Source of the DNA: Bryopsis sp. KO-2023
Taxonomy: Eukaryota > Chlorophyta > Ulvophyceae > Bryopsidales > Bryopsidaceae
DNA length: 64,000 bases
NCBI GenBank assembly: GCA_030272585.1
Contig: BSYQ01000005.1
Location: 372,001-436,000, forward strand
Reading direction: 5' to 3'
Part shown: piece after piece, positions 10,109 to 59,847 of the stretch
How positions within the stretch are numbered: position 1 is the stretch's first letter
Layout: every line of letters begins with the position of its first letter
Position numbers and translations under genes: made by a program
The notes under the pieces: generated by a model
Told to the model about the DNA's origin: nothing
Databases searched by the model: none
Seen by the model: the letters and a program-made list of their open reading frames with translations, nothing else

Positions 10109-13100
10109 CTGTGTATTAAAAAAAAAATGCGTTGAGTTTTTTCGCCATCCTTTCGATTTTGGATTTCGGGTTGGTGATGGCCAACTGGAGCCATGAGCAT
10201 GTTTGAGGAAAAAGGGCGATTTGACGTGACGTGAGCGTGTGTTTGTTGCAGAATTACTAAGGTTGGCAAAATGGTCGTTTGGTTTTTGTTTTCTTACTTT
10301 TGATTTTTTCTGATCAAGGAGTTGAAAATATGGTTCACAGTTTAGCATTTTCATGGTTGTTTTGCGAGGGATTGGCCCTGTACTTAGTCTTGTTGGTTTT
10401 TGCTGCGGTTTAGTAATCTCAATTTGTGGAGTGGGGCAAAATGATTGAATCTATGGGAAGAGGCAGGCAAGCCATCGGGAATGCACCTGAATCAACAGCC
10501 TCTCGGCTGTCGTCTCTTGTCCTTTTCCCAATGGCACCTTCCCGAATTTCTTGATGAACATTTCCTCCCCCAGTTTAAGCCAATCGCCCATGTCCATCCC
10601 GAAGTTTGGAAAACCCATTACCAGTTTGTCGGGCCGCAAGCATCTCAAAACCAAAATCTTTTGGAAAGTTTCGAGCTTGTCGTTCCATGGGGAGGCCAAG
10701 TTGAATTCGTGGGTATGGTCGTCGAAAATGTTCTTGTAATGAAGGATGTTGTCAGTGAAGTGCGTGTCGAATCCCTGGAAGTTGGGAAGTTTGGATAGGT
10801 TCAGAATTTCAGCCCATGATTCTTCCGTCAGCCATTCACTTGCTGGGTTGGGGGTCATAACTTCGCTGGAGGTTGGCTTGATCAGCAAAAACCTGTAGAA
10901 AGCAATTATCACCTTTTCGAACGAATAATATTGAAAGAAACGCAATGCATGAACAATCGACAAGTGCAGCAAATATACAGCTGTAAAAAAATTCAGGAAA
11001 TCAGTCGATCAGTCCCAACATTTCTTGCATTTTTTTAATGGGAAACTGACCTCCACTCCAATATTTTGCCATTCTGCTTCATCATTCTCACACACAGAAG
11101 CAGCGAAAAGATCAGCTTGTGCTTCTCGAACAGCGATTGGCAAACGTTCGCATATGGGGAATACTCGTTCGAGTTTTCCCCTCTTTCCTTGATATCCTTT
11201 GCCTGTGGGGCTTCCCTGATCCCCCTCACAAACAGAGCAATAAACCACCCCAGCGAATATTGACACATGGGATCCACTGAGGCCAAGTCTGACATGCAGA
11301 AGAACAACAAGCTCGCCCGAATTGCCACCGGTCTGTAGATCTCTTCATTCTGTGCTTTTTCATATTCTTGGAACTTGGCTGCAATAATATTCGAAGTGAT
11401 CTTGGACTGAGGGAGCATGTCGGTGGGCTGTTCCTCATCCACTATGTTTCCTTGAGAGTTGCTGAGTATGAAAAGAATGTTTTCCTCGATGTCTACGAGT
11501 TTTTTACTGATGCTCGGGCTGGATACCACCATTTGATTTTCCATGTTGGCCAGATCCTGCCTCTCTTCTGCAGCTACGATGCCCAGAAGTTGTTCCTCCA
11601 AGGCTTCCGGAGTGACGAAAAAACTAAGGAAGGACACCTGATTTCACAGAGATCCACAGAGTGGGGAAACTACATCCAGGTTCTATTGGAAATCCAGCGA
11701 AGTTGATTGTACCTTGTGTACCGGAAATTGGGGAGGAGAAGGAAAAAAACTGGCAGTTGATGGACAAGGAAAGCTTGCGCACCTTTGCAGCTTTCTCATC
11801 TTCTTGGACCTCGGCTGCAAATTTAGCCACTTCTGGAGGATTTCGCAGCTTCTTGGTCTTGAAAATATTGAAGTCAAGATCGTACCGAATGATATGGTCG
11901 CCACTTTTGATCATTTTGCTGCCCCCAGACGATAACAATACAATCAGAGGGGTCCGGGGGGAAGATTTCAGGAATTCCAGTGGGTTTTGGAGGTGGCAAT
12001 TGTAAGTGTGTCTGAAGTACACAAAGGTGATGCACCCAGAGGCAGTCAAATGTTGAAATACGAAACAAGGCAAGGACAAAAAAATATGGATGGGCTGCGG
12101 AACCCAATCCAATCCACAATCAGTCCAAAACATACACGGATGGTACATATCTTCATAAGTACTTCTGACTTTGGGTGTGTGTGTGTGTTTTTCTTATTTA
12201 AACTATTTTTTTTGGAACTTTCCCCGAACCTTGGAGCCACTTTAAACTCCCATTCTGCAGTATCCACTGTCATGATTCGTATTTTGTCGCGGCAATACCC
12301 TCCTGAGTAGTTCATGAACTGACGCAACAGTTCGATTGACGGCTGTGCACCCTTGACTGGCACGAAAGTCACCCACTTTGTACCAACCGGGGGCCCGAAC
12401 ACTCCCTTACGGCGTTTCTCCAGTCTACAATCCACTTGAAAATCTTGGGTCATGTCCCCAGACGTCCTGGCGGCGATAGTTTCGAAGACTGGGCGATGCA
12501 ACTCTTTGGCGAGACCCTCCACAAGATGCCGCATGATGTACACCGGCTTGCCTGCCCCGTTCGGTCCCACCATGAGGAGGGGCTGACTATGCTGGACAGC
12601 AAGGTACCTGAGCCATCCAAAAAAGATCGACATTTCAGAGAATGAAATACTGGAGCCAACAGGTGCCAAGAACATCGAAATATTGCTTTTTTTCTACCTC
12701 GCCGAGTCCTTGATGAGCACAATAATATCAGAAACTTGTGCTCCAGAAGATATGTCCATGTCTGTGGGTATATTCGTCCACAGCTGCCAAGCGGACGTTT
12801 CCTTGTTGAAGACGTAGTTTTTCACCGTGGTTTCCTGCGTGTTAGGCATGAGCGGGCAACAGAATCCGACAGGCTCCACTATCACTTTCTCAAACCCTGG
12901 AACGAGCTTTCCTTCAGAAAGTTCTCGAAAAAAGTTGTTGAATTTCTTTCTGCCTTGATCGTCAGTGGTGCCTCCAACTGACCACACGAACGAAAAAAGC
13001 AACGAGCTGTCTATCCACAACAGCTTCTTGTCTTGTTGGTCCAAATTTGCACCTGGGAAGAACATCAGTCAAAACTGTGTCAGAAAAAGCGGATGGACCA

Positions 13101-15966
13101 GGCAAGGAAAAGGTGCGTCAGACAAGGTTCCCTTTTGTTCCATTTTTTGTGATCAACTTTGGGTGGGGACAAACACGGATGGCAATTTTACCGGCTGGTG
13201 TAGGTGCGTCCTCTTCTTGTGATGATTGGAACTCATCCAAAAGTAAAACAATCGTGTTCATGGCTGTACGTGCAACATTGATCCCTTCGGTTGGGGATAC
13301 TTTTTTGGTCTCCTTTCTCAAAAACCTCAAACAGCACGGGAGAAGCCAGCTGAAAAGCTGGCCAATTCGATCGACTGGACTCTGTCCCAAGGTCGATTGC
13401 GGCAATGTGTTCATCCACGATGTCAGCAGGAGCCTCCAGTCGAGCTCCAGGTACACGATGCCGCATCTGTATTGAATAAAAAGTGCGACTGCTTGTTGAT
13501 CGGATCAAAGCTGTGAAGCACACTGGGCGTGAAATGCACAATTTACTGGATTGTTGCTGAATTGAACTACCTGGAGACTGTGGCCGGTGAAGCAGCCGCC
13601 AAATCCCCGACTTCATAGATTGTTGACGTCGTTGCCGACATCTCAGAGTCAGGCAAACGAAGCTTCTTGTTATTGTCCAAAGAAGTGTTCATGTTTTCAA
13701 TCCAGAGTTTCCTGCCAGGAGAAGGATCCGATGCCAGCCGCCTGGAAGTAGTAGCTGCCAATACCCCATCCTTCCACTCCTGAGTAGCCTTGTTTGCGCC
13801 ACAAATTTGCCCCATTGTGGCAGACTTGGGATTCAAAATGCGTGTTTGAGCCTTATCGAAAAGGACGCCCTTCACTCCTTGATCGTTTAGTTCAGTCAGA
13901 GCGCCCGACAACACCTTGATGGAGCTCGACTTGCCAGAGAACGGCTGGCCGACAAGCATGACACCTTGGTGGCCAATAATCATTTCGTGGAGATGTACCG
14001 TCTGCATCCAGCCACACAACTGTAAAAAGCTCATCACATTCACAAAGGGATATTCACATTTCCTGCGAGGAAGCCCACCTTCACGATGAAATACTCCTCC
14101 GATGCTTGCAAGTTGTGCAGGTCGCACTGGTTTTTCATGGCTTGCACCAACTGGTTATTGTCCGCTCCTGGCATTTCGACTCCGGGGAAAAGATCAGAAA
14201 CGATAGCGTTGAAAAGGGGAACATCATGGCTGAGGAGCTTGCACAAGTTGACGTCTATGATCGCCCGCAGCGTCAGGACAAATTCGTCACCATCAACGTA
14301 CTCCCTCTTTTTTTCTGCTGCTGCTTGAAGGACGGTGACCAGGGCTCGCATTCCATAGTCGTAATGACTCGAAAGCTGCTCCGAGCAGAGCTTGTACGTG
14401 GCCACAATTTTACGAGCGCAGTCCTTCGCCTGCAATGCAACATGGATACTTCGACTGCTCCAACGTCCGACGAGCAGCACACAAGGAAGAAGCTCTTCCC
14501 ACGAGATCATACCTTCAGATATCCGTTGGAATAGAGAATTGTCTCCCCGATGAAAGCATCATCAGGAACCATCATCGCCACAGTTCTGAACAAAGTTTTG
14601 GCAGGGAGCTCCGAACGACCAGCGGATCCAGGATTCATCGTGATAAAAGCGTTGCAGCTGTGTCGCACTGAGCCCTCAAACACGACTGTCTTGATTTTGT
14701 TGTCCGCTGGAAGCTGCAGCTCGAGGACTCGTTGCGCCGCCACAGACAGCACCTGGTGGGAGAAAACAAAACCTTTGAGTGAAAAAACCGTCTAGATATT
14801 GAATTAAGCTTTAAGCACACCAGGGATCTGCCAAGAGGTCGATGATCCGACCTCAAGATGTATCCTTTTAAACCCATCGAAACAAGCCCATGCTCCAAAA
14901 GAGATAAGCCCTTCGAAAAACTTCGCCATTGTCAAGCAATCCAGAGCGTCCAAACAGTTGAAGACGACGCACTGACGAGCCAATGCCTTGGCAACGTTCT
15001 CCGTCTTTCCCATTCCAGCGGGCCTGGGGGAACGAAGAAAACCCATCATGACTGTCATGGAACGTGCTTTGTTTGCTTTGTGGACGTTTTGATCTTTCCA
15101 TGCCAGTTCTTACCCTTCAGAATCTCCACCAAAGCTGGGATGGATCGCATCCATAAGTGTCCGATAACACCGATGTGCGAGTGGAGTCACCACGAGCCTG
15201 GATAAATTTCCAAGATACTCGTATCCACACTCCGCTCTTGAGTTTCTCATGCTGAGTGGAATGGAAAGCTCTTCCGGTTGATCGGGGTCCGGGCACTGAT
15301 TCAATGAGCAAAAAACGATTGAGCTTTGACCCTTGCAGCAAAATTGCTTCAACTCAAAACATTCATTTTAGTGTGCACCTGCCAGTAGCTTCGAAATTGG
15401 ACTGGATTTAGCTCCACAAGACCTGCCACCACGTCTCGAGCGCGGACGTCCATGATCACCAGTGAGCTCAAAGTCATTCTGTTTAGCTTGCTCAAATTTC
15501 CGCGCACCAGACCCACAGTGTCAAACAGCTGGGACGTACACTCTTCACTGACTTCCTTAAGAGCCCTCGCACGCCCAGATCGAATCCCATTCTCCACATC
15601 CACTGTCCTGTGTATTGCAGCGACGACAAGCACTACCTGACCAGGCCATTCAAGAGCCCATTCACAGCGGGGCTTTTGTGGATAGAACTCCACACCCAAG
15701 CTGCAGACCTCGCGTATCGACTGAACCACACCAGCGACGTCCACCAAAGCAGCGTCATTTGGTACTTCGACGTGCTCATTCTGGTTTTGATGGTCGTTTT
15801 CCTCGCCATTTGTTACTTCGACGTGGTTGTTGTCGTAACTGTTCTGGTCGTCACTGTCGTCTTCCAAGTCGTTTCGGTGGTCGTGTCGTCGGTTTCGAAT
15901 GATTTTTCGAATGCCTTTGATGCTAAGAGTTGAAAGCCCGATCACGAGCGCAACTTTTTTCCACAT
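9938..15966 (-). CDS. Leader-anchored, stalkless mini-dynein heavy chain (unit 1)
   Basis: Exons placed by eye (minus): 15966-15379, 15331-15114, 15023-14852, 14752-14513, 14429-14079, 14019-13571, 13466-13177, 13052-12698, 12607-12230, 11918-11810, 11637-11051, 10892-10487, 10108-9938. All junctions are GT-AG and all phases match, giving 1,438 codons without a stop; the 3' end was not found. Order: leader, end of the dynein linker ([11 protein letters not shown]), AAA1, AAA2, AAA3, AAA5, start of AAA6, then a 57-codon exon of unknown nature. Motifs resemble single-headed inner-arm dyneins (DNAH3/7/12 group), which are about 4,000 residues long. The tail, most of the linker, AAA4 and the microtubule-binding stalk are absent. 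AAA1 has GMGKTE, but its Walker B reads CFDGFKR instead of CFDEFNR, so ATP hydrolysis there is doubtful. AAA2 keeps FSGKSS; AAA3 has GAGKP instead of GTGKS/T. It may be an expressed compact protein or a duplicate that still reads through. Confidence 0.6.
10487..11918 (-). CDS. Unit 1 exons 10-12: AAA5 and start of AAA6
   Basis: Exon 10 (11918-11810) resembles the AAA5 entry ([17 protein letters not shown]). Exon 11 (11637-11051) has [27 protein letters not shown] and [14 protein letters not shown]. Exon 12 (10892-10487) has [15 protein letters not shown] and [11 protein letters not shown], then loses similarity. AAA4 and the stalk, which should lie between exons 9 and 10, are missing. Confidence 0.6.
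12230..13466 (-). CDS. Unit 1 exons 7-9: AAA2-AAA3 with altered P-loop
   Basis: Exon 7 (13466-13177) begins CGIVYLEL and carries [12 protein letters not shown]. Exon 8 (13052-12698) has [10 protein letters not shown] and [14 protein letters not shown]. Exon 9 (12607-12230) carries the AAA3 P-loop as [12 protein letters not shown], where Pro replaces the Ser/Thr that binds magnesium, then [12 protein letters not shown] and [13 protein letters not shown]. The frame stays open past 12230 through an intron that also recurs downstream of unit 2. Confidence 0.6.
13571..14019 (-). CDS. Unit 1 exon 6: AAA2
   Basis: AAA2 P-loop [10 protein letters not shown], then [18 protein letters not shown] and AASPATVSR. 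Compared with units 2 and 3, about ten codons (the CVLDGPVDAV segment) are deleted in frame just before WIENMN. That removes the AAA2 Walker B neighbourhood. Confidence 0.65.
14079..14752 (-). CDS. Unit 1 exons 4-5: rest of AAA1
   Basis: Exon 4 (14752-14513) carries [15 protein letters not shown], the AAA1 sensor region, and [11 protein letters not shown]. Exon 5 (14429-14079) carries [34 protein letters not shown] and LFPGVEMP. The next intron begins GTGGGCTTCC in most units, a handy marker for comparing them. Confidence 0.65.
14852..15331 (-). CDS. Unit 1 exons 2-3: AAA1 start, P-loop and Walker B
   Basis: Exon 2 (15331-15114) has [19 protein letters not shown], the typical stretch before AAA1. 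Exon 3 (15023-14852) has the P-loop PAGMGKTEN and CVVFNC. The Walker B line reads ACFDGFKRI: the catalytic Glu is Gly and the Asn is Lys. The intron between them is short (about 90 bases). Confidence 0.65.
15379..15966 (-). CDS. Unit 1 exon 1: leader fused to dynein linker end
   Basis: ATG at 15966 was chosen because it aligns with the leader ATGs of the other units, although the frame is open to 16200. Residues 4-19 are hydrophobic ([12 protein letters not shown]), then comes a polar D/N/H/E-rich stretch to about residue 70. From about residue 80 it matches the end of the dynein linker ([27 protein letters not shown]). Leader and dynein are joined within one exon with no intron between. The exon ends at CAG/GT (15379). 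Confidence 0.65.
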
Positions 15967-15975
15967 CTTCTTTAG

Positions 15976-15993
15976 ACCAAGTCGTAACCTGAT
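15976..15993 (-). promoter_or_regulatory. 5'UTR hairpin before leader ATG, unit 1
   Basis: On the minus strand ATCAGGT-TACG-ACTTGGT can pair over seven positions with two G-T pairs. It ends nine bases before the ATG at 15966. Equivalent hairpins precede the other three leaders. Confidence 0.45.
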
Positions 15994-16028
15994 CGACCCA
16001 GAGATGGAAAACGGACTATCTTTGCACG

Positions 16029-16103
16029 TTTTATACTTGCAAGGATAGTCCAATAGGAAGGGAGTCGCGGAGTTTGACCTTTGGATTTCTGTCAAATCAC
16101 GTG
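16029..16103 (-). promoter_or_regulatory. Promoter of unit 1: TATA box and CACGTG
   Basis: TATAAAA (16035-16029, minus) lies 63 bases from the ATG, and CACGTG (16098-16103) lies upstream, followed by a GA-rich run (16110-16142). The same layout precedes the units starting at 34444 and 59848. Transcription start is inferred at about 16000. Confidence 0.5.
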
Positions 16104-28011: not shown

Positions 28012-28958
28012 CTAAGGTACAAAGTTGAAGAATGATGGTGGTGGTATCCTACTTTGGTTTCGCAGCGAATTCTTGATCGATAGCATCTTCGTGGGCGGTG
28101 GTGGTATCCTCCTTTGGTTCTGCAGTGGATTCATGATTGATGGCCTGTTCGGTGGTGGGAGGGGTATTCCACTGTTGGATGGCAACTTTTTTTGTCGTGG
28201 TGATTGTGGCTGCGGAATCCTACTGCGTTTCCACAATGGATCCGCGGTAGATGGCAATTTTTGTCTTGGCGGTGGTGGTATTCTTGCTGGTTCCTTGATT
28301 TTTTTTGTGGCAACTTTGTTTTCTTGTTCAAGCTCAACTTGAACTTCCCTCTTTTCCACTTGAATTGCTCTCTTTCCAGATTCAACCTTTTCAGGTTTCT
28401 TCAACTGAAGAGCAAGGCTGAGTTCATGACTGTCCATCCCATTTTTTTCAAGTTTATTGGCTCCCTTTGAAGGGATTATGTCACATATTGCGTGCGCGCT
28501 CTGGACATTTGCATGTTTGTGCTCCAATTCTTCAATCTCAGCAGAATGTTGTTCCCGAGCTGACGCCTCGTTCAACAGATCAGGGTCTTCGTGGTTGGGC
28601 TCAATGAACTTAGGTCCCATATCCTCCACCAGGTTATTTCCTTGATTGGTTGTGGAATTGTTCCTTGATTGTTTCCTTTCTTTTTTGAGCTGACGAATTT
28701 CTCCTTGGGCCTCCAGCTCTAATCTCAGACTTGATATAGTCTGACACACATTAACACATTCTAAATCTTAGATTTGTTCCCCAACAGGGTGCAAGCACTG
28801 TTGACTGATCCTTGTCTCACCTGTTCAGCTTTTTGCAACTGACAAGCAAGATCACGTTCCTTGCTCGTTTGGTACACATCCCCAGTTTCAATTTTTTCGC
28901 ACTCCTCTTTACTCTTTTGTAGGAAAGCCGGTAGGATGGTCTCCGACTTCGGCACCAT
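28012..28958 (-). CDS. Coiled-coil protein with proline-rich tandem repeats
   Basis: Two exons, 28958-28821 and 28740-28012, joined GT-AG in phase 0, encode 288 residues from the ATG at 28958. Residues 1-150 are rich in E, K, Q and L with heptad-like spacing (SLRLELEAQGEIRQLKKER; IEELEHKHANVQ), suggesting a coiled coil. The last 85 residues hold about four imperfect repeats of roughly 24 residues of the type RIPPPP-K-LPS---PL---R. Such proline runs often bind SH3, WW or EVH1 domains or profilin; that is family-level inference only. The gene sits 350 bases downstream of the unit 2 stop on the same strand. No known family is recognised. Confidence 0.5.
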
Positions 28959-29036
28959 TTCCCTGGGAGAACTGATTTTCAGTTATAGATCTTGAGAATC
29001 TATTGATGCTTACCAAGGGACTCGGGATGTGACATA

Positions 29037-29311: not shown

Positions 29312-29519
29312 TTATTTTCTTGCAACTGCGGATTTGCTTGCAAGCATCACCAACCTCGGATCCACTTTAAGGGAGTTGTTGGTGAAATGAGTGTCGAATC
29401 CCTGGAAATTGGGGAGTTTGGACAGGTTCAGAATTTCAGCCCATGATCCTTCCGTCAGCCATTCACTTGCTGGGTTGGGGGTCGTAACTTCGCTGGAGGT
29501 TGGCTTGGTCAGCAAAAAC
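29312..29519 (-). CDS. Unit 2 last exon: AAA6 start, truncated
   Basis: Carries [15 protein letters not shown] and [13 protein letters not shown], then diverges from the unit 1 sequence and stops at 29312. The C-terminal dynein domain is missing. Confidence 0.6.
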
Positions 29520-32500
29520 CTGTAGAAAGCAATTATCACCTTTTCGAATAATGTTGGAAGAAATTCAATGCATGAACAATCAACAAGTGCAGCAAAACAC
29601 TGCTATACAAAAATATATATATATTCGAAAAATCGATAAGTCAAGCCAACAACATTTCTTGCGTTTTTTGTTAGATGGGAAACTGACCTCCACTCCAATA
29701 TTTTGTCATTCTCCTTCATCATGTTCACACACAGCAGCAGCGAAAAGATCAGCTTGTGCTTCTCGAACAGCGATTGACAAACGTTCGCATATGGGGAATG
29801 CTCGTTCGAGTTTTCCCCTCTTTCCTTGATATCTTTTGCGCGTCGGGCTTCCCTAATCCCCCTCACAAACACAGCAATAAACCACCCCAGCAAATATTGA
29901 CACTTGGGATCCACTGAGGCCAAATTTGACATGCAGAAGAACAACAAGCTCGCCCAAATCGCCACTGGTCTGTAGATCTCTTCATTCTGCGCTTTTTCAT
30001 ATTCTTGGACCTTGGCTGCAATAATATTCGAAGTGACCTTGGACTGAGGGAGCATGTCGGTGGGCTGTTCCTCATCCACGATGCTGCCTTGGGAGTTGCT
30101 GAGCACGAAGAGAATCTTGTCCTCGATGTCTCTGAGTTTTTCTCTCATGCTGGGGCTGGACACCACCAGTTGATTTTCCATGTTGGCCAGATCCTGCCTC
30201 TCTTCTGCGGCTACGATGCCCAGAAGTTGTTCGACAGACGGCTGTGCGCCCTTGGCTGGCACGTTGATAACATCAACGAAAGTCACACACTTTGTACCAA
30301 CCGAGGGCCCAAACACTCCCTTTCGGCGTTTCTCCAGTTTACAATCCACTTGATCTTGGGTCATGTCCCCAGATGTCCTGGCGGCGAAGGTTATGAAGAC
30401 TGGGCTGTACGACTCTTTGGCGAGACCCTCCACAAGATGCCATATGATGTTCACCGGCTTCCCTGTCCCGGTCGGTCCCACCATGAGGAGGGGCTGACCA
30501 TGCTGAATAGCAAGGTACCTGAGCCATCCAAAAAAGATCGACACTTCAGAGAATGAAATACTCAAGCCAACAGGAGCCAGAACATCGAAATATCGCTTTT
30601 TTCTACCTCGACGAGTCGTTGATGAGCACAATAATATTGGAGAATTGTGCCCAAGCAGGGATGACCATATCTGTGGGTGTATCCGTCCACAGCTGCCAAT
30701 TGGACGTTTCCTTGTTGAAGAAGTCATACACTGTGGTTTCCTGCGTGTCAGGCGTGAGTGGGCAACAGATTCCGACGGGTTCCCCTATCACTTCTTCATA
30801 CCCTGGAACGAGCTTTCCTCCAGAAAGTTCTCGGAAAAACTTGTTGAATTTCTTTCTGCCTTGATCGTTAGTGCCGCACCCAACTGACCACACGAACGAA
30901 AAAAGCAACATGCTGTCTATCCACAACAGCTTCTTGTCGTTGGGGAAATGTGCACCTGAAAAGAACACCAGTCCAAACTATTTCAGAAAAAGCGGATGGA
31001 CCAGGCAAGGAAAAGGTGCGTCATACAAGGTTCCCTTTGTTCCAACCCTGGGTGAGGGCAACACGGATTGCAATTTTACCGGCTGGTTTAGGTGCGTCCT
31101 GCTCCTCTGATGACTGCAACTCATTCAAAAGGGAAGCAATGGTGTTCATGGCTGTACGTGCAACATTGATATCTTCTTTTGGGGATACTTCTTTGGTCTC
31201 CTTTTTTAAAAACCTCAAACAGCATGGGGGAAGCCAGCTGAAGAGCTGGCCAATTCGATCGATTCGAGTCTGTCCCGAAGTCGATTGCGGCAGTGTGTTC
31301 ATCCACGATGTCAGCAAGTGCCTCCACCAGAGTTGGTGAGGCTCCAGGTACACCATGCCGCATCTGTATGGGAAGAAAAGTGCGACTGCTTGTTGATTGG
31401 CTCACAGTGAAATAAACTGGTCGTGAAATGGCATTGTTGGCGATTGCTGGATTTCCGCTGGAAGTACCTGGAGACTGTGGTGGGTGACGCAACAGTCAAA
31501 TTCCTGACTTCAAAGATCATTGACGTCGTTGCCGACATCTCAGAGTTAGGCAAGCAGAGCTCCTTGTTATTGTCCAAAACAGCGTTCATGTTTTCAATCC
31601 AGACGGCATCCACAGTCCTAGGACGGTCCAGCACGCAGAGTTTCCTGCCAGGAGAAGGGTCGGATGCCAGCTGCCTGAAAGTAACTGCCACTACCCCATC
31701 CTTCCACTCCTGGGTAGCCTTGTCTGTTTCGCCACACATTTGCGGCATGGTGGCAGACTTGGGATTCAAAACCAGTGTTTGGACGTCATCCAAACGAACG
31801 CCCTTCACTCCTTGCTCGCTTAATTCAGTCAGAGCGCCGGACAACACCTTGATGAAACTCGACTTGCTAGAGAACGGTTGGCCGACAAGCATGACACCTT
31901 GGTGGCCAATAATCATCTCATGGAGTTGTATCGTCTGCGTCCAGCCACACAACTGTAAAAAGATTATCTTCTCGCTCATCACATTCACAAAGGGATATTC
32001 ACATTTCCTGCGAGGAAGCCCACCTTCGGAATGAAATTCTCCGATGCTGGCAAGTTGTGCAGGGCGCACTGGTTTTTCATGGCTTGCACCAACAGGTTAA
32101 TATCCGCTCCTGGCATTTTGATTCTGGGGAAAATATCAGAAACGATAGAGTTGAAGAGAGGAACATCACGGCTGAGGAGCTTGCACAAGTTGACGTCTAT
32201 GATCGCCCGCAGTGTCAGGACAAATTTGTTGCCATCAACGTACTCCCTCTTCATGTCTGCTGCTGCTTGAAGGACAGCCACCAGGGCTCGCATTCCATAC
32301 AAGCAGGAGACCACAGCCACAATGTCGCTTTCTTCTTCTCCCATCGAAGACAGCAAAGCAACGATTTCGTGGCCAGTCTTTGACAACACTGCAGGGTTGA
32401 TCCTGTCCCCACTGGTTTGAAACATTCCCCTCAGAGCTGCTAAGTACGGCTTGCGAACCGCAGGCTCACTTCGCCCAGCGTCGCCTGACAGATCCGCTGC

Positions 32501-34444
32501 CAACTGATCAACTCTGGGACTCATGCGAGTCAATTGACCTAGATTCTTGGCAGCCTGGTCTCGGACGTTTGGAGTGGGGTCCTGTAGACATTTCAAGAAA
32601 GTGGTTTGCAGCTGAGGGACGAATGCCTCGAGTCCGTCTCCCGCTTTGTTGATCAGCAACCCCAGCGTTGTGAGGATGGCAAGCTTGATTCGCCAGGGGA
32701 ATCTATCACGGATGATCCTGATGAGCGGAGCAGTGATTTGAACGACGAATGGCCTCAGCATTTTGGTGCTGGTCAGCTCGACGAGCTCTCCTAAACCCTC
32801 AGTAGCGAGCTCACGGAGATCAGCTGAACTTCCCTGTAAACAATACTCTCAGTCATCCTCCACAAAGGTTCAATCCCAACAGCCTCGAACCAATTCAAAA
32901 AATAACAAACGGGTTTGTCCACACTCAAAAATACCTGCAACACTCCTTGGAGGTAGATCTGCAAGACTGGACCTAACCCTTTAGGCAAGCAGAACTCATG
33001 CACCAAAATCTCCTCCCCGGTCATTTTCCTCCTCTCCTTGTCCCTGGCACTCGCAACCGCATCTTTCAGGCAACGCACAAAAGAGGGCTGCGTGTCCTTG
33101 GGGATGGTTGCAGTGACCGACTCCAGGGCAGTCCAACAAGTCTTCACCACAATTTCATTGTCTTCCTCAAGCAATGGCACCAGTGCTGTGATGAGCTCCG
33201 CGGTGTGCTCCGAAACATCCACCTTGGCATCGCTGCACAGAGTTTTGACCAGCTCTGCTGAGCAGAGGTACCTGGTCAAATCCTCCAGCCCCTTCAGCAA
33301 CTCAGCAATGAGAATCGAGGTCGCTTCTTCTGGCACAGACAAGGCCACCTGTCTTGCAGCAACCTTTGCTGCTTCCTCCACAGGTTTCCCGCTTTCCATG
33401 CTGGCCAGTGACAAAACAGCCGGCAGAATGGTGGGCAAATGTGCTCGCAGGGATGCCCCTGCAGCACTCGCCAGGGCCCACAAGGCTTGGATATTTGTGA
33501 CTGAGATGGGTTTGTGCAGCAGCCTTGGAACCATGGAGTTCAGCGTTTGAGGTCTTACGCTCAGAATCACTTGAAGACCTTTCAAGGCCTGAGAATTTCC
33601 CCTGTCTGATTGAAGCTGTGCCAAAATGGCTGGAACAACGGTATTCACGACAGAACCAGCACCTGCCTTGAAAAGGGCATTAAAAGCTCCAGCCGCCGCC
33701 TCACGGACCTGATCAACAACCACCAGGCACAGTTGCTCTCGGTTTAAAACTGTCTTTTCTACAGCATGTGTTTTAGCTTGAATCTGATATGATGTGATCA
33801 ATGCCCATTACTTCTTTTTGTTCCGAAACTGCAGCTTTCGGAAGACTGGTCCCATGCATTTTGAAAAGACATTTTTTTACCTCAGGATCCTGGGACCCTT
33901 TCGACCCACACAAGCTCACGATCAAAGGGCATGCGATTCCATATTGACGTGCATCAAAAACGCCCCAGGAACCATCAACGCCTATGGAAATTCGACATTC
34001 GGGTTGGCACCTGACCCTTCCAAGTTGTACATTCAGCAACTTCGCTTTGTCTGGATTGCGCCCCTGAATGACCTGAAAAGCAAAAGTCGAATTAGCTACA
34101 AATCGACACACCTGCATGCTCCACCCCGCGACAGCTGAGGATTCCAAAGAGTTTCCTCCAAGTTCGGCTTGTGTCGGACCCAAACCCACAGCTGAGCTGA
34201 TTTCCTCGATTTCTGCTTCCACATCTTTGTCGCGCTCGTTTTGGTAGTTGTTGGCGTGGTTCTTCTCTTGGACGTGGACGTGGTCGTCGTCGTGGTCGTG
34301 GTCGTGATCGTTCTGTTTCTGGGTCTGGGTCTGGGTCTGGTTCTGGTTCTGTCGTCTCTTACGAAGACGAAGGATATGGTGGATTCTTGTTGCGCCAGCG
34401 ATAGCAAGTCCAACTCCAATCACTATCTTGGCTTTCTTCATCAT
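29312..34444 (-). CDS. GCN1-dynein chimera with leader (unit 2), complete frame
   Basis: Exons by eye (minus): 34444-34112, 34072-33881, 33708-32935, 32833-32024, 31952-31468, 31363-31065, 30955-30607, 30518-29688, 29519-29312. All phases match, giving an uninterrupted ATG-to-stop frame of 1,426 residues. The 39-base gap between the first two exons is a multiple of three and open, so it may not be an intron. Order: leader; unknown segment; HEAT repeats of GCN1, the ribosome-bound activator of the eIF2-alpha kinase GCN2 (LRPFVVQITAPLIRI, FVPQLQTTFLKCLQD); then dynein from the end of AAA1 through AAA2, AAA3, AAA5 and the start of AAA6. The GCN1-dynein junction is inside one exon near 32300. AAA2 reads FSSKSS (Gly to Ser), AAA3 GTGKP. 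No stalk. Joining two unrelated families in frame with intact splicing is unusual; an expressed product is inference. Confidence 0.6.
29688..30518 (-). CDS. Unit 2 exon joining AAA3 directly to AAA5
   Basis: The exon starts [21 protein letters not shown] (AAA3 P-loop, Pro at the Ser/Thr position) and runs to GAQPSVE. Near 30230 it continues at once as [16 protein letters not shown] (AAA5). About a thousand residues of a normal dynein, including AAA4 and the stalk, are absent without leaving an intron. Confidence 0.7.
30607..31952 (-). CDS. Unit 2 AAA2 and AAA2-AAA3 exons
   Basis: AAA2 exon 31952-31468 (VGQPFSSKSSFIKVLSG; TVDAVWIENMN retained), then 31363-31065 (CGMVYLEPHQLWWRHLLTSW) and 30955-30607 ([21 protein letters not shown]). 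The AAA2 P-loop has Ser where Gly precedes the Lys. Confidence 0.65.
32024..32833 (-). CDS. Unit 2 fusion exon: GCN1 into dynein AAA1
   Basis: The exon starts GSSADLRELATEGLGEL (GCN1) and continues through the GCN1 helices to SMGEEESDIV near 32318. Within a few codons (near 32300) it becomes dynein: [26 protein letters not shown], ending at the GTGGGC donor used by the other units. There is no stop, no intron and no linker between the two families. Confidence 0.75.
32935..33708 (-). CDS. Unit 2 GCN1 HEAT-repeat exon
   Basis: Starts VREAAAGAFNALFK after TTGATCAG, runs through LSVRPQTLNSMVPRLLHKP, ASARDKERRKMTGEE and FCLPKGLGPVLQIYLQGVLQ, and ends at a CAG/GTATTT donor. It corresponds to the C-terminal third of GCN1. 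It keeps a segment of about 57 residues (from ARQVALSVPEEATS) that the plus-strand copy has lost. Confidence 0.75.
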
Positions 34445-37810: not shown

Positions 37811-38010
37811 TATATTCTCCATAGGTGGTGGAGGCGATCTTACTGTTATGAGAAGGGGAGTAGTGGGGGAAGTCCTAATAGGTAAGAGAGAATTAAGTGA
37901 ACATGCATGCGACAGAGTGGTATGAGGCGAGTGTCGGGTATGGAATGATTCTTGTGAAAAGCGATCCAGAGAAATCAGAGTGAGACTATTTTTGTTTCCT
38001 GTTTTTTTCT

Positions 38011-38125
38011 ATGAGGCTTCACTTGGACGTGTTTCTCAAAACGAAAGCTTTTTCCTTCCAGCTGATCCCCATTCTGTTTCTCATTTGTTTTTTGGGTTTT
38101 GCCATTGCTTGTTGCGTTCCAAGAG
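38011..38125 (+). CDS. Possible signal-peptide exon
   Basis: From the ATG at 38011 the frame encodes a hydrophobic core (LIPILFLICFLGFAIACC) followed by a strong donor (AAGAG/GTGAGT). This resembles exon 1 of a secreted protein. No in-phase partner exon was identified, so it may be fortuitous. Confidence 0.25.
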
Positions 38126-39607: not shown

Positions 39608-41078
39608 CTATTTTTCGTTTTTTTCAAGTGGTGGACGAATTTTTCGCATACCCACAAGGTGTGGACTTATTGAGAGCGACGGCTGTAGTCGTAATTCAAG
39701 GGTTCTACCGACCTTGGTTGTGATTTCATTTGGGGGTTCATGGAGTTGCTTCCCATCAGTTTGTTCGACTGCTTGGACCTTGGCTGTTTCACTGGCAGTA
39801 GTTTTGGACTGGGAGAGCGTGTTGCTGAGCTTTTTGTCGTCTAAAATGCTGCCTTGGGAGTTTCTGAGCTCATCATCGATGTGTGTGGGTTCCTGTTTCA
39901 TGGTGGCGTTGGTCATGGGGATCACTTGATTCTTCCTGCTCGGCTTTTCATTTGTGACTGCGTTGGCTTGCCCTTGCAGGTCAATGATCAATGGCCACTG
40001 CCTTGGGTTTTGGACGTCCTGGTATTTGATAGAGAGTTGCGTTTCTTGGACGAAGTTTTTCTGTCGATTGAGCCATGCCTGATTTTTGTTGTCGGTGATT
40101 TGATCGGCAAGAACTCTTCCAAATTCATCCATCCACAGGGGAAGGTTTTCAGGTTGATGCACAGTGGTCATCATATCAGCAATGGCTCCCTGAATGACAT
40201 GAAAGTAATAACTGGGGTTAGGGGCATCTGGTGCATGTTTTGCCATGTCTATCGGCTGAGCTTTCCTCCCCCAAATCACCTCCCATCGCACGTCAAAACA
40301 AGTTCACTGAAGGGTAGAAAGATCCACCAACGTAATAATAGTAATAATGATCACCTGGGTGAGCTCGATTTTGATCACTTCGCTCTTTGATTTCCCTCCT
40401 TGGCTGGCAGTGATGGCAATGCTTTTCTCTAACACCTCGAAACACCCACTCAACTCCAGAGAACTTTCTGGAATCATCCTCCCCCCCAGCAGAGCATTCC
40501 CTAAGGATTCTACCACAGGGCAGATCCTTGACATGGCCATCACGACGTCCTGGAATTTTAGAAAGAGTTTTGTTTTTTGGAGGGTTTTCCGCTGTTGGTG
40601 CAACCAGTTCTGATTTCCATTTTCGATGAGTCCATCAGCAAGAATGCTTCCAAATTCATCCATCCATTTGAGCTTTTCTTGGGCTCCGATCAGATTGCTC
40701 ATTTGTACGATGTCGCGAGAATCGTGCACGTATACTGTGCGAGGGTCTGTAGAACGTCGCACAGACCACTTTTTCCCATAGCATATTAAGGAAAGATGGC
40801 CCATTTGCACGACCGAAACCTTGCCAGGCTCCCCATTGGCTTCATTGACTGTGGCCACATCCACCACCGCATCCAACATTTTGTCATTCTCCTTCATCAT
40901 GCTCACACACAGAAGCAGCGAAAACATCAGGTTGTGCTTCTCGAACAGTGATCGGCAAACGTTTGCATATGGGGAGTGAGTGAAATTCTCCTTCGAGTTT
41001 TCCCCTTCTTCCTTGATATCCTTTGCCCGTGGGGCTTCCCTGATGAGGAGGGGCTGACAATGTTGGATGGCAAGGTAC
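39608..41078 (-). CDS. AAA3/AAA6 join plus duplicated unknown domain
   Basis: Exon 41078-40355 starts YLAIQHCQPLL (AAA3) and jumps in frame to IREAPRAKDIKEE and LFEKHNLMFSLLLCV (before AAA6). It then becomes unrelated: LKWMDEFGSILADGLIENG followed by NWLHQQRKTLQKTKLFLKFQD. Exon 40189-39608 repeats this domain (LPLWMDEFGRVLADQITDN, NWL-like AWLNRQKNF, LSIKYQD) and later has RNSQGSILDDKK, a faint echo of AAA5 (SNSQGSIVDEEQ). The duplicated domain of roughly 50 residues is not recognised. Confidence 0.5.
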
Positions 41079-41166
41079 CTGAACCATCACAAAAAAATCG
41101 ACACTTCAGAGAATGAAATACTCAAGCCAACAGGTGCCAGAACATCGAAATATCGCTTTTTTCTAC

Positions 41167-42291
41167 CTCGCCGAGTCTTTGATGAGCATAATGATATCGG
41201 AACCTTGTGCTCCAGCAGTGATGTCCACATCTGTGGGTGTATCCGTCCACAGCTGCCAAGTGGACGTTTCCTTGTTGAAGACGTAGTCATACACTGTGGT
41301 TTCCTGCGTGTCAGGCATGAGCGGGCAACAGAATCCGACAGGTTCCCCTATCACTTCCTCATACCCTGGAACGAGCTTTCCTTCAGAAAGTTCTCGAAAA
41401 AACTTGTTGAATTTTTTTCTGCCTTGATCGTCAGGGGTGCATCCAACTGACAACACGAACGAAAAAAGCAACATTCTGTCCATCCACAACAGCTTCTTGT
41501 CGTTGGGGAAATTTGCACCTGGAAATAACATCAGTCAAAACTGTGTCAGAAAAAGCGGATGGACCAGGCAAGGAAAAGGTGGGTCAGACAAGGTTCCCTT
41601 TTGTGCCATTTTTTGTGATCAACTTTGGGTGGGGACAAACACGGATAGCAATTTTACCGGCTGGTTTAGCTGCGTCCTCTTCCTCTGACGACTGGAACTC
41701 ATCCAAAAGGGAAACAATCGTGTTCATGGCTGTACGTGCAACATGGATATCTTCAGTTGGGGATACTTCTTTGGTCTCCTCTCTCAAAAACCTCAAACAG
41801 CACGGTAGAAGCCAGCTGAAAAGCTGGCCAATTCGATCGACTGGACTCTGTCCCAAAGTCGATTGCGGCAGTGTGGTCATCCACGATGTCAGCAGGAGCC
41901 TCCAGTCGAGTTGGTGAGGCTCCTTGTTGTCGTCCAAAACAGTCTTCATGTTTTCAATCCAGACGGCATCCACAGGACCGTCCAGCACGCAGAGTTTCCT
42001 GCCAGGAGAAGGATCCGATGCCAGCTGCCTGGAAGTAGTAGCTGCCAATACCCCATCCTTCCACTCCTGAGTAGCCTTGTCTGTTGCGCCACAAATTTGC
42101 CCCATTGTGGCAGACTTGGGATTCAAAACAAGTGTTTGAACCTTATCGAAACGGACGCCCTCCACTCCTTGCTTGCTGAATTCAGTCAGAGCGCCCGACA
42201 ACATTTTGATGGAGCTCGACTTGCTAGAGAACGGCTGGCCGACAAGCATGACACCGTGGCGGCCAATAATGATCTCATGGAGTCGCACCGT
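41167..42291 (-). CDS. Second-ring AAA2 merged with AAA2-AAA3, then AAA3
   Basis: Exon 42291-41643: a 4-base deletion destroyed the usual start of this exon, but a new CTGCAG/ACG acceptor keeps the frame. The P-loop reads FSSKSS. LDDNKE is joined directly to [13 protein letters not shown], so the intron and both exon edges seen in other units are gone, apparently by deletion between GAGCC-like matches. Exon 41518-41167 continues with [15 protein letters not shown]. Confidence 0.6.
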
Positions 42292-42376
42292 CTGCAGCCA
42301 CACAATTGGAAAAAACTTATCGTCTCGCTCATCACATTCACAAAGGGATATTCATATTCCCAGCGAGGAAGCCCAC

Positions 42377-42813
42377 CTTCGGAATGAAATTCTCCGATGC
42401 TGGCAAGTTGTGCAGGGCGCGCTGGTTTTTCATGGCTTGCACTGTCAATTCTTCCATGGCAGCAGCCGATTTCTTGGATTCTTTTTCTGCATTTTCCTGA
42501 CTTTTTTTGAAAGGTTTCTTCAAACTGTCGACTTTGACAGCTTTTGCAGATTTTTTATCCACGATAATTCTAAGCTTCTGGTTTTCCTCTTGCAGGGCAT
42601 CGTTCCTTTTCCAAACCGAATCCATCTCCGACCAAAGAATATCAATCATGCACTCCAACTGACCGTTTTCTTTCTGTAGGTGCTCCACTTGTTTCTGCAA
42701 AGCCTCCACTTGCTTGTCCACATCATCTTGCCTTCCCAGAATATCAGCAGCTTGATCACTGACTTGCTCACTGATTGTGGCCTCCAGTGGTGTTTCAATC
42801 TCGCTCCAAACAC
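42377..42813 (-). CDS. Coiled-coil exon fused to dynein
   Basis: About 115 residues of strongly heptad-like sequence (VEALQKQVEHLQKENGQLE, NDALQEENQKLR), then the same [18 protein letters not shown] coil as at 45060, then dynein [20 protein letters not shown]. It sits after AAA3, where a normal dynein would begin AAA4 and the stalk, but the sequence is not the dynein stalk. Its source gene is not recognised. Confidence 0.6.
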
Positions 42814-43086: not shown

Positions 43087-43464
43087 TCATTTTTTCACTT
43101 TCGGATCCCTCGATGTTGCCACCAGCCAGGTTGTCGCGGCCATACCCTCCTGAGTAGTCCATGAACGGACTACACTTCGATTGACGGCTGTGCGGCCTTG
43201 GCTGACATGTTGATATCCTCAACGAAAATCACACAATTTTTACGGACCGGGGGCCCAAACACTCCCTCACAGCGTTTCTCGAGTCCACAATCCACTTGAT
43301 CTTGGGCCATGTTCCCAGACGTCTTGGCGGCGAAATTTATGAATACTGGGCTGTGCGACTCTTTGGCGAGAACCTTCACGAGATGCCGCACGACGTACAC
43401 CGACTTTCCTGTCCCGGTTGGTCCTACCATGAGGAGGGGCTGACTATGCTGGATAGCAAGGTAC
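43087..43464 (-). pseudogene. AAA3 exon with intact P-loop but a frameshift
   Basis: The P-loop reads VGPTGTGKSVYVV, the only AAA3 P-loop here with the normal Ser. After AAQPSIEV there is a TAG (43172-43170). Compared with unit 1 ([13 protein letters not shown]) about two bases are missing before FMDYSGG. The exon then stays open to the ATGA/GTAAGT donor. Confidence 0.65.
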
Positions 43465-43553
43465 CTAAGCCATCTAAAAAAGATCGACACTTCAGAGAAT
43501 GAAATACTCGAGCAAACAGGTGCCAAGAACATCGAAATATCGCTTTTTTCTAC

Positions 43554-44865
43554 CTCGCCGAGTCCTTGATGAGCACAATAATATCCATATCTGTGGGTGT
43601 ATCCGTCCACAGCTGCCAAGTGGACGTTTCCTTGTTGAAGACGTAGTCATACACTGTGGTTTCCCGCGTGTCAGGCATGAGTGGGCAACGGAATCCGACG
43701 GGCTCCCCTATCACTTCTTCATACCCAGGAGCGAGCTTTCCTCCAGCAAGTTCTCGGAAAAACTCGTTGAATTTCTTTCTGCTTTCATCGTCAGTGGTGC
43801 ATCCAACTGACCACACGAACGAAAAAAGGCACATGCTGTCTATCCACAACAGCTTCTTGTCGTTGGGGAAATTTACACCTGGAAAAAACATCAGTCGAGA
43901 CTGTGTCAGAAGAAGCGGATGGACCAGGCATGGAAAAGGAGTGTCATACAACGCTCGTATACAACGTTCGGTGGGGGCAACACGGATTGCAATTTTACCG
44001 GCTGGTTTAGGTGCGTCCTCTTCCTCTGATGACTGGAGTTCATCCAAAAGGGAAGCAATGGTGTTCATGGCTGTACGTGCAACATGGATATCTTCAGTTG
44101 GGGATACTTCTTTGGTCTCCTCTCTCAAAAACCTCAAACAGCACGGTAGAAGCCAGCTGAAAAGCTGGCCAATTCGATCGACTGGACTCTGTCCCAAGGT
44201 CGATTGCGGCAATGTATTCATCCACGATGTCAGCAGGAGCCTCCAGTCGAGCTCCAGGTACACGATGCCGCATCTGTATTGAATAAAAAGTGCGACTGCT
44301 TGTTGATCGGCTCAAAGCTGTGAAGCAAACTGGGCGTGAAATGCACAATTTACTGAATTGTTGCTGGATTGAACTACCTGGAGAATGTGGCCGGTGAAGC
44401 AGCCACCAAATCCCCGACTTCAAAAATCGTTGACGTCGTTGCCGGCATTTGTATGATCTCAGAGTTGGACAAACAGAGCTCCTTGTTATCGTCCAAAACA
44501 GTATTCATGTTTTCAATCCAGACGGCATCCACAGGACCGTCGAGCCCGCAGAGTTTCCTGCCAGGAGAAGGGTCCGATGCCAGGTGCCTGAAAGTAACTT
44601 CCACTACCCCATCCTTCCACTCCTGGGTAGCCTTGTCTGTTTCTCCACACATTTGCCTCATGGTGGCCGACTTGGGATTCAAAGCCAGTGTTTGGACGTC
44701 ATCGAAACGGACGACCTTCACTCCTTGCTCGCTTAATTCTGTCAGATCGCTCGACAACACCTTGATGAAGCTCGACTTTCCAGAGAACGGCTGACCGACA
44801 AGCACGACACCTTGGTTGCCAATAATTATCTCGTGGAGATGTACCGTCTGCATCCAGCCACACAA
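43554..44865 (-). CDS. AAA2 to AAA3 entry, first ring
   Basis: AAA2 exon 44865-44378 keeps [25 protein letters not shown] and an IIQMP segment lost in units 1 and 2. It is followed by 44273-43984 and 43878-43554. These are the best preserved AAA2 and linker exons in the window. Confidence 0.65.
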
Positions 44866-44924
44866 CTGTAAGAAGCTCATCCCATTCACAAAGGGATATT
44901 CATATTCCCAGCGAGGAAGCCCAC

Positions 44925-45419
44925 CTTCGGAATGAAATTCTCCGATGCTGGCAAGTTGTGCAGGGCGCGCTGGTTTTTCATGGCTTGCACTGTCAATTCT
45001 TCCATGGCAGCAGCCGATTTCTTGGATTCTTTTTCTGCATTTTCCTGACTTTTTTTGAAAGGTTTCTTCAAACTGTCGACTTTGACAACATTCTCCGTCT
45101 GTCCCATTCCAGCGGGCCTGGGGGAGAACAAAAAATGTGTTGGAACGTGCTTTTTTTTCCTTGTGACGTTTTTATCTTTCCATGCCAGTTCTTACCCTTC
45201 TGAAGCTCCACAAAGGTTGGGATGGATCGCACCCATGAGTGTCCGATAACACCGATCTGCGAGCGGGGTCATCACGAGCCTGGATGAATTTCCAAGGGGA
45301 GTAAATGGGACGCGTTTGAAGACGTCCCCCATTACGCTCTTATCCCGCGCTCTCCTGTTTGCAATAGCCTGGTAGGCTTGCAACGCTCGGACTCGGATGG
45401 AAACGGACGTATATTCCAT
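44925..45419 (-). CDS. AAA1 start, dead P-loop and coil insert
   Basis: Exon 45419-45196 ends [16 protein letters not shown]. The normal GYEYLGNSSRL is replaced in part by an unrelated stretch ([15 protein letters not shown]). Exon 45117-44925 has PAGMGQTEN, where the P-loop Lys is Gln, and then within one exon [18 protein letters not shown] (a charged coil), followed by dynein [15 protein letters not shown]. Nucleotide binding at this AAA1 is not expected. Confidence 0.6.
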
Positions 45420-50524: not shown

Positions 50525-52075
50525 TCAACGAGTCCCAATTCTCATCCTATAAGACGTTTTCTTTTTGTTTTGGGACTGCAATGCATTTCTGTTCTGGTTG
50601 GAAGAAATGCCGGGTGCGTCTTTTTCTGATTTCTGACGCAGACTTCCTTGCACCTTGAACATAGACAGCATGAAAAACCCAAAAAACACCCCATGGATTG
50701 CAACTTTGAACCTTGTTTTGACTGCAATCAATTCGACCACCATGTGGCATTGATCACGCCGGATTTTTGAATGAAAATATATGTCAAACTGCACCTTGTT
50801 GCACATCTCTCGTATGCCCTCATGGAAGATCTTGTTATTGTCCAAAACAGCGTTCATGTTTTCAATCCAGATGGCATCCACAGGACCGTCTATCACGCAG
50901 AGTTTCCTGCCAGGAGAAGGGTCGGATGCCAGCTGCCTGAAAGTAACTTCCACTACCCCATCCTTCCACTCCTGGGTAGCCTTGTCTGTTTCTCCACACA
51001 TTTGCCTCATGGTGGCCGACTTGGGATTCAAAGCCAGTGTTTGGACGTCATCTAAACGAACGCCCTTCACTCCTTGCTCGCTTAATTCAGTCAGAGCGCC
51101 GGACAACACCTTGATGAAGCTCGACCTGCCAGAGAACGGCTGGCCGACAAGCATGACACCGTGGTGGCCAACAACAATCTCGTGGAGCTGTATCGTCTGC
51201 GTCCAACCACACAATCGTAAAAAACCCTTATCATCTCGCACAAAGGGATGTTCATATTTCCTGCGAGGAAGCCCACCTTCAAAATGAAATTCTGCGATGC
51301 TCGCAACTTGTGCAGGTCGCACTGATTTTTCGTGGCTTGCACCAACTGGTTATTGTCCAATCCTGGCATTTCGACTCCGGGGAAAAGGTCAGAAATGATA
51401 GTGTTGAAGAGGGGAACATCATGGCGGGGGACCTTGCACAAGTAGACGTCTCTGATCGACCGCAGCGTCAGGACAAATTCGTCGCCATCGGATAGCACCT
51501 GGTGGGAGAAAACGAAAAAGTGAAAAAGCCGTCCAGATATTGAGCTAAACTTTATGCACAGCAAGAATCCGCCAAGAGGTCGATGGTCCAACCTTAAGAT
51601 AGAAAAAAAATCCTCACGAAGAGCCTTGAATATTCATCAACCATTAATGGTTCGAAAAAACTGCCAGGAAAAACACATACATACATCTATGTATATATAT
51701 TCTTTCTGTCAAGCTCGTCCGGTTCATCGGGGTCCGGGCACTGATTCGATGAGCAACAAACAATTGAGCTTTTTCCATGGCAGCAAATTTGCTTCAAATC
51801 ATAACACTCATTTCATTGTGTACCTGCCGGTGGCTTCGCAATTGGAGTGGGTTTAGCTCGCCCTCGATTCCTTCCTCCACAACAGATGCCACCACGTCTC
51901 GAGCGCGGACGTCCATGATTACTGGGGCTACATGGTTGTCTTGGTCGTTTGGATTTGCGTCGTCTTGGTCGGTTTGGTTCTGGTTCTGGTTTCGGTTACG
52001 TTTTCGTCGAAATATTTTGTGTGCGGCCACAGCGATCCCAATTAAAAAGGTCACTTTGGTCGCTTTCTTCATCAT
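50525..52075 (-). pseudogene. Leader plus decayed dynein piece (unit 3)
   Basis: Exon 52075-51824: leader (TFLIGIAVAAHKIF, then an N/Q/D stretch) fused directly to the dynein linker end ([15 protein letters not shown]). The next exon equivalent (about 51770-51700) keeps QCPDPDEPDEL but has lost its acceptor and AAA1. Exon 51498-51277 starts VLS and jumps to [12 protein letters not shown], deleting the AAA1 core. The AAA2 exon (from 51214) lacks the acceptor AG (TACGATTG where others have TACAGTTG) and its P-loop is FSGRSS (Lys to Arg). Dynein similarity ends near 50831 and the frame continues into unrelated sequence to a stop at 50525. Several lesions make a working dynein-like product unlikely. 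Confidence 0.6.
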
Positions 52076-52084
52076 CCTTGAACG

Positions 52085-52098
52085 AACAAGTGTCTGTT
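52085..52098 (-). promoter_or_regulatory. 5'UTR hairpin before leader ATG, unit 3
   Basis: Minus strand AACAG-ACAC-TTGTT can form five pairs, ending nine bases before the ATG at 52075. It is weaker than in the other units. Confidence 0.35.
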
Positions 52099-52130
52099 GA
52101 CCCAGAGATGACCTTGGACTATCCTTCCAC

Positions 52131-52138
52131 CTTTTATA
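52131..52138 (-). promoter_or_regulatory. TATA box of unit 3
   Basis: TATAAAAG on the minus strand lies 56 bases from the ATG, within the shared context CTTGCAAG-TATAAAA. The CACGTG and GA run of the other promoters are absent here. Confidence 0.45.
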
Positions 52139-52439
52139 CTTGCAAGAATAATCCAAGTGCCATCTCTGGATCAAGAGCTTTGACCTTTGGATTTCTGTCA
52201 AGACCGACAGTAACTGAGGAGAGAAGCTCTCGATTTCCGAGTCAAGCACTGAAATAGAAGAGTCTCGACGACCGGCCAACAAAACAGAACCAATACTACC
52301 CACGTCTAAAGCATTGTCACTCTCTGCGACGCGCGAATATGATTTGGTAAGATACGAAGGGCGCCCTCCACCTGCCTTCCTCCGGAATCGCCTCACAGGC
52401 TGTGAACAGCCGCCATTTAAGTGTTTGGTATTCGTTTCT

Positions 52440-59737: not shown

Positions 59738-59781
59738 ATTGACAGAAATGCAAAGGTCAAACTTCGCGACCCAGTGATGGG

Positions 59782-59787
59782 TATAAG
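59782..59787 (+). promoter_or_regulatory. TATA box of the plus-strand unit
   Basis: TATAAG, 61 bases before the ATG at 59848, the same distance as in unit 2. It is followed by ACTTGCAAGGATAGTCC and TCCATCTCTGGGTCGACC, shared with unit 2. Confidence 0.5.
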
Positions 59788-59823
59788 ACTTGCAAGGATA
59801 GTCCGTTTTCCATCTCTGGGTCG

Positions 59824-59841
59824 ACCGAGTTACGACTCGGT
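59824..59841 (+). promoter_or_regulatory. 5'UTR hairpin before leader ATG, plus unit
   Basis: ACCGAGT-TACG-ACTCGGT: seven perfect pairs and a four-base loop, ending six bases before the ATG. Confidence 0.5.
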
Positions 59842-59847
59842 TCAAAG

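Follow-up and report, generated by a model that had tools for sequence, protein, structure and literature searches.

Chimeric genes are usually met dead or long after they have settled. The nearest known kind to the genes described here appears, by analogy, to be Sdic of Drosophila melanogaster, in which AnnX is joined with a dynein intermediate chain, the coding part deriving from the dynein gene only, and for which a role in sperm competition is reported (PMC3395120). The family on contig C5 (BSYQ01000005.1) of Bryopsis sp. KO-2023 would resemble Sdic in being young, species-restricted, chimeric and tandem, with a parent among the dynein genes, parents that have been kept and copies reshaped by deletion; it differs in that GCN1, a dynein heavy chain and an RNA polymerase subunit-like piece have all contributed coding sequence, and in that the parents lie on other contigs. 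The C5 genes form a local multi-copy array with parents elsewhere and hold a coding frame under selection, as would be expected of an Sdic-like system. No report of a GCN1-dynein chimera was found in the literature, searched by title and abstract opening.

GCN1 is a HEAT-repeat, ribosome-bound activator of GCN2, and its GCN2-binding part is C-terminal. The GCN1 part of the C5 chimeras is about 90% identical in DNA to the gene on contig C1, but unlike GCN1 the chimeras hold an internal piece only, fused to other domains; in the unit at the center of this analysis (unit A) GCN1-type HEAT repeats were found, and a full-length GCN1 carrying the C-terminal part was not. The dynein copies share the parental exon structure and sequence of a DNAH3/7/12-type inner-arm axonemal dynein heavy chain. 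Unlike such a chain, unit A is without the AAA1 front, half of AAA3, AAA4, the stalk, AAA6 and the C-terminus, and its P-loops are altered. On sequence grounds the C5 genes are best described as a frame-keeping mosaic family and not as a lone chimera.

Bryopsis sp. KO-2023 is an ulvophycean green alga, and its genome was searched as 28 contigs with a total of 91 Mb. Male and female plants of it had been collected (PMC12509668). The window, that is, the whole stretch of 64,000 nucleotides that was analysed, corresponds to C5:372001-436000, and positions without a contig prefix count within it. Unit A is composed of the following parts.

34073..34444, minus strand: leader, with ATG, a short hydrophobic stretch, then charged low-complexity residues
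33891..33940, minus strand: Pol III largest subunit-like piece, about 50 bases left, limits set by eye
32300..33893, minus strand: GCN1 piece, 90% identity to C1 in a 1,654-column alignment
32299..32300, minus strand: GCN1/dynein breakpoint, inside exon 32833-32024, in frame
30229..32299, minus strand: dynein piece, 82% DNA identity to C13:1396043-1398178
29355..30228, minus strand: dynein AAA5 piece, Pfam AAA_7 then AAA_9 in one ORF
28049..28971, minus strand: C-terminal tail exons 28971-28821, 28740-28387 and 28171-28049, as in the deposited model BSKO_05772

A sequence-only reading of this DNA had proposed that GCN1 HEAT repeats and dynein AAA modules share one exon, and this was confirmed: exon 32833-32024 (minus strand) runs from GCN1 HEAT into dynein AAA without a stop or an intron. 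Pfam labels the ORF upstream of the joining exon HEAT_GCN1 (E 9e-33, bits 114, cut-off 27), the joining exon itself AAA_6 (E 2e-19), and the sequence downstream of it AAA_7 (2e-25) and AAA_9 (4e-13). The GCN1 piece consists of the end of one exon, the whole exon 33708-32935 and exon 32833 up to the join, with its introns kept; homology to C1 stops at C1:3367873, beyond which the parental frame continues. The dynein piece spans the end of AAA1 to the first half of AAA3 (exons to 32024, 31934-31468, 31363-31080, 30955-30607 and from 30518), and the AAA5 piece (exons to 29688 and 29519-29355) directly follows this half AAA3, without AAA4 and the stalk. Much of the same tail is present in copy B. 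A start of exon 4 at 31934 is more probable, since this is where the acceptor of the C13 parent lies, and copies B, C, D, g, k and m are without an AG at the type of site chosen previously.

The same reading had given unit A an ATG-to-stop frame of nine exons and 1,426 residues. A frame from ATG to TAA with GT-AG introns does run from 34444 to 29312, here rebuilt with 8 exons and 1,434 residues, so that the frame stood and the nine exons were not reproduced. The stop at 29312 is probably intronic, and the 3' end drawn there too early, because BSKO_05772 has a splice at 29355 and continues in exons as far as 28052. With all exons kept and the tail exons of this model added, unit A reads as 11 exons with GT-AG introns from 34444 to 28049, giving 1,623 residues.

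The unit had been described as standing alone and as having its own leader; neither description survived the genome search. A 200-base DNA probe across the join matched 10 places genome-wide. Its full length was matched by two, A itself and B; its GCN1 half (1-101) alone matched C1, and C and D over 90 bases, and its dynein half (102-200) alone matched C13 and four C5 copies. Unit A is one of four GCN1-dynein copies on C5, and its join is also found in B. No clear shared bases were seen at the break between 32300 and 32299, and C and D have a 114-base deletion at the join that keeps the frame. Related leaders precede other C5 copies, with matches besides A at C5:291873, 312171, 424075 and 431848, and weaker ones at C5:284739, 333337, 354743 and 387775.

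A protein probe gave 40 genome matches, many of them on C5. Thirteen dynein-derived copies (A-D and e-m), compared as DNA aligned with the C13 parent, lie within C5:281-438 kb; four of them (A-D) hold GCN1 and nine are GCN1-free relatives. The copies that concern us here are listed below.

C5:406-400 kb, minus strand: copy A, GCN1-dynein
C5:312-321.5 kb, plus strand: copy B, GCN1-dynein
C5:291.9-299 kb, plus strand: copy C, GCN1-dynein
59743..64000 and past the window to about C5:438 kb (C5:431.8-438 kb), plus strand: copy D, with leader, GCN1 exons, shortened dynein AAA and a different tail
10742..16035, minus strand: copy j, leader and dynein (linker, AAA1-3, AAA5), without GCN1
40872..42442, minus strand: copy k, shortened dynein copy, no stop in the exons compared
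43131..45296, minus strand: copy l, dynein copy with the parental AAA3 P-loop and no stop in the exons compared
50830..52141, minus strand: copy m, partial dynein copy with a leader match

An open frame of 648 codons lies in copy D at C5:434740-436683. In copy B, which is a mosaic, the leader is followed by the Pol III-like piece, a dynein piece, no less than 3.9 kb of GCN1 and a second stretch of dynein. The part of its GCN1 that aligns with the C1 stretch compared is 3.9 kb long, between two dynein pieces, and may reach about 1.3 kb further upstream; an open frame upstream in this copy (C5:313770-314471), which may be GCN1, was assigned to no family by Pfam. Unit A is without about 4.6 kb that B has between the leader and mid-GCN1. 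Similarity is 97-98.5% between C and D and 95% between A and B. In a tree of the dynein part (the parent and 12 copies, without m) A is paired with B and C with D, and A-D are grouped with a support of 0.89; the C13 parent is placed between C5 copies, which may reflect gene conversion or uneven rates. The family is enclosed by large segmental duplications that reach about 95-98% identity in the longer pieces and take in most of the window. They include interrupted inverted duplications within C5:301-341 kb versus 380-417 kb and a tandem duplication of C5:284-299 kb versus 424-439 kb.

The donors are GCN1 on C1 and an axonemal dynein heavy chain on C13 and, for A and B, also a Pol III large subunit-like fragment on C8; the parental genes on C1 and C13 were read in part only. 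The best matches of the C13 parent are chains of the structure entry 8glv, from Chlamydomonas, and chains named dynein axonemal heavy chain 7, 12, and 3, and its stalk domain lies at C13:1400424-1401341. The third donor is represented in copy B between leader and GCN1 (C5:312610-312967), where four main pieces match C8 with 71-95% DNA identity, and the piece is longer in B than in A. The match at C8:383579 is 82% over 22 aa. The C8 frames read [28 protein letters not shown] and [38 protein letters not shown], which we take, from their motifs, to be the RNA polymerase III largest subunit; Pfam PF05000 on the piece is below the cut-off (E 0.016). Short stretches at C6:730658-730843 are 79-88% identical to the dynein piece.

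It had further been argued that stops or broken phases would be expected had the sequence decayed at random. This holds family-wide: indel events are multiples of three in 36/36 exonic or exon-spanning cases versus 13/48 intronic ones (Fisher 4e-13), counting identical gaps in several copies once, with some rows overlapping and the events therefore not fully independent. The dynein alignment (13 C5 copies and the parent), with gap events classed by the exons of A, contributes 22/22 versus 8/27, and the GCN1 alignment (A-D and the parent), with events classed by parental exons, 14/14 versus 5/21. One 113-base row, which came from unrelated sequence upstream in f and l, was removed before counting, and one 4-base row (C, D and k) was moved to the introns since the parental acceptor lies downstream; counted as exonic it would give 36/37. 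By reading of the carriers, 16 exonic events arose within the chimeric lineage, all in frame (12 in GCN1, 3 in dynein, and the 114-base deletion at the C/D join). The dynein exons compared have no stop in all 14 sequences, each taken in its fewest-stop frame and several of them partial, and the GCN1 exons compared have none in the parent or in any of A-D. GT-AG splice sites border every compared dynein and GCN1 intron that has not been deleted. For single copies the simulated stop expectations are weak, with a probability of zero stops of 0.01-0.29 for dynein and 0.10-0.38 for GCN1. Gene conversion among the copies could help to keep the frames. What the decay argument does not reach is a joint product of GCN1 and AAA1-3, as the four deposited models skip AAA1-3.

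The pair A and B taken alone gives a similar picture. Between 33893 and 30482 there are 3 exonic indels (6, 6, and 3) in 2,714 bases versus 7 intronic ones in 685 (Fisher 0.0009); a 627-base in-frame deletion in exon 7 of B, common to g and k, lies outside this interval. For GCN1 only, the counts are 2 in 1,302 exonic versus 2 in 283 intronic bases, which is not significant (P 0.15). We relied on Fisher tests here, since a Poisson test with a fixed intron indel rate overstates significance.

Ka/Ks for A and B is 0.39 in the GCN1 part (Fisher 0.003) and 0.56 in the dynein part (0.04), jointly 0.0006, and for C and D 0.60 and 0.51, respectively, with a joint Fisher value of 0.04. The plus-strand copy that had been suggested for such a comparison is copy D, which turns out to be a GCN1-dynein chimera itself; against it A gives 0.64 in GCN1 (P 0.20) and 0.67 in dynein (P 0.06), with a joint P of 0.04 and neither part significant alone. 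Values are 0.24-0.36 for C5 copies versus their parents and 0.39-0.75 among C5 copies, the codons comparable with C1 GCN1 numbering 436 in A and 953 in B. From these ratios and the Fisher tests, coding constraint is present but relaxed or weak.

Two simple origins were considered and rejected. A pseudogene would pile up frameshifts and stops in its exons, and these were not found, with the one exception of an in-frame TAA in the leader of B. A processed retrocopy is at odds with the parental introns that are kept, and where C and D have lost introns the flanking coding bases are gone too. One C/D deletion, AAG/GTTGCT...CCAAG/GTGG, resembles a splice-type removal; the other C/D deletions do not. 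Transposon capture was set aside as well: Pfam found no transposase family in the 10 window ORFs submitted to it.

We consider it likely that unit A codes for protein and belongs to a young family on C5 that was duplicated locally, with a frame kept by selection and a fused product. Since selection has kept one frame running from GCN1 through dynein to the tail, we strongly infer that a fused protein would be the most likely product of that frame. The present structure can be read directly from the DNA, and the order of events leading to it may be reconstructed as follows. A C5-specific leader would have been joined to a cut-down axonemal dynein heavy chain; the ancestor of A-D would then have taken at least 3.9 kb of genomic GCN1, introns included, inside its dynein part with the frame kept; inverted and tandem duplications and many in-frame deletions would have produced the present copies, in which selection would hold a single frame all the way from the GCN1 part to the tail. 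With four fusions, donors on other contigs, nine GCN1-free relatives and dozens of indels in one genome, each stage at which selection takes up or discards a new domain join would be readable directly.

Such a product appears very unlikely to be a working motor, because it has no stalk and no AAA4 and the P-loops are altered in A, C, and D. The six dynein AAA modules were not found in A, where only the AAA1 end, AAA2, one half of AAA3 and a portion of AAA5 are present. The stalk PF12777 was found at no fewer than 48 places in the genome and at none within C5:281-438 kb, the nearest being C5:485750. Weak stalk matches with short open frames at C5:485-562 kb and C8:5.05-5.14 Mb are possibly further dynein genes or derived clusters. 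Intact P-loops were not found in A. The motifs of the AAA2 P-loop read GQPFSGKS in the parent (kept in B), GQPFSSKS in A and GQPFSSRR (broken) in C and D; those of AAA3 read GPTGTGKS in the parent and GPTGTGKP in A, C, and D, and the motif is deleted in B. The combination of a HEAT scaffold and ring modules with a leader suggests a scaffold or decoy to which partners of GCN1 and of the dynein ring might bind, perhaps in the flagellated gametes; although speculative and of low probability, this seems to us the most likely role.

The deposited gene models lead to a different possible product. They are BSKO_05772 (A), BSKO_05765 (B), BSKO_05763 (C), and BSKO_05777 (D), and all four skip dynein AAA1-3 through long introns. 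BSKO_05772 maps onto unit A residue for residue and exon by exon; it has 945 aa, starts in another frame of the leader exon, removes 32311-30194, retains dynein AAA5 and ends at 28052, and it is the only one of the four with a dynein Pfam label. The main transcript of the locus might accordingly run from GCN1 to the tail past AAA1-3, with the dynein exons serving a different isoform or start site, and GCN1 and AAA1-3 would then seldom or never occur in one protein. We regard such a two-product locus as possible but unlikely. It would agree with the models, which skip AAA1-3 with three different donors (after 32312 in A, after C5:318821 in B, and at one common site in C and D), and the C/D donor, GTGAGC, looks close to a good splice consensus. 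However, that donor sequence also occurs inside the parental GCN1 exon, whose frame runs on. In A and B a single exon and frame hold both GCN1 and dynein, and the 114-base deletion in C and D keeps this frame. The very dynein exons that the deposited models of A and B skip have a much lower number of indels than the introns (1 in 1,412 versus 5 in 402 bases, Fisher 0.003), and the frames of the dynein exons lead into the tail frame of the deposited models. With all exons kept, one GT-AG frame runs from GCN1 through dynein to the tail in A, B, C, and D, which in B, C, and D was read without a stop from the large GCN1 exon to the tail exon; B may start elsewhere, as in its deposited model, because of the TAA in its leader. 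Should a fused product be confirmed, the dynein part of GCN1-dynein genes may have been lost in automatic gene modelling.

Protein database searches gave 42, 404 (best 120 listed), and 49 matches, with about 8,000 candidates scored per search by shared words. Among the matches listed, for some of which in the third search the label lists are shortened, GCN1-type HEAT and dynein labels occur together only in BSKO_05772, and no GCN1-dynein chimera was seen outside Bryopsis sp. KO-2023, in searches that need shared five-residue words and similar length.

The same mosaic structure may also be viewed as a fast-evolving selfish or gamete-competition family, which would repeatedly rebuild itself from inserted and trimmed pieces of essential genes, namely GCN1, Pol III and axonemal dynein, and whose frame-held subunit mimics would interfere with those machines; this seems to us doubtful. 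That the copies are recently dead or transcribed, non-functional duplicates, too young to have broken, is improbable. The closeness of C to D and of A to B, the raised Ka/Ks among copies and the stop in the leader of B would fit such duplicates, but the introns of these copies gathered many frame-changing indels and the exons compared gathered none. An assembly artefact joining unrelated loci might be feared in a region so rich in near-identical inverted and tandem repeats, but it is very improbable given that A and B, about 4-5% apart, have the same join, that C and D have a derived form of it, and that the deposited model of A likewise connects GCN1 to dynein AAA5, although this model comes from the same assembly.

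Around the protein-coding copies which we favor, the window has some features of its own. Positions 20372-20694 are a copy of the sequence upstream of the leader, and leader searches gave no match adjoining them. Long near-palindromic hairpins occur at 4679-5092 and 7444-7810, self-complementary at 82% and 75%, respectively, and the interval 38001-40000 has an AT skew of -0.28, the strongest among the 32 intervals of the window.
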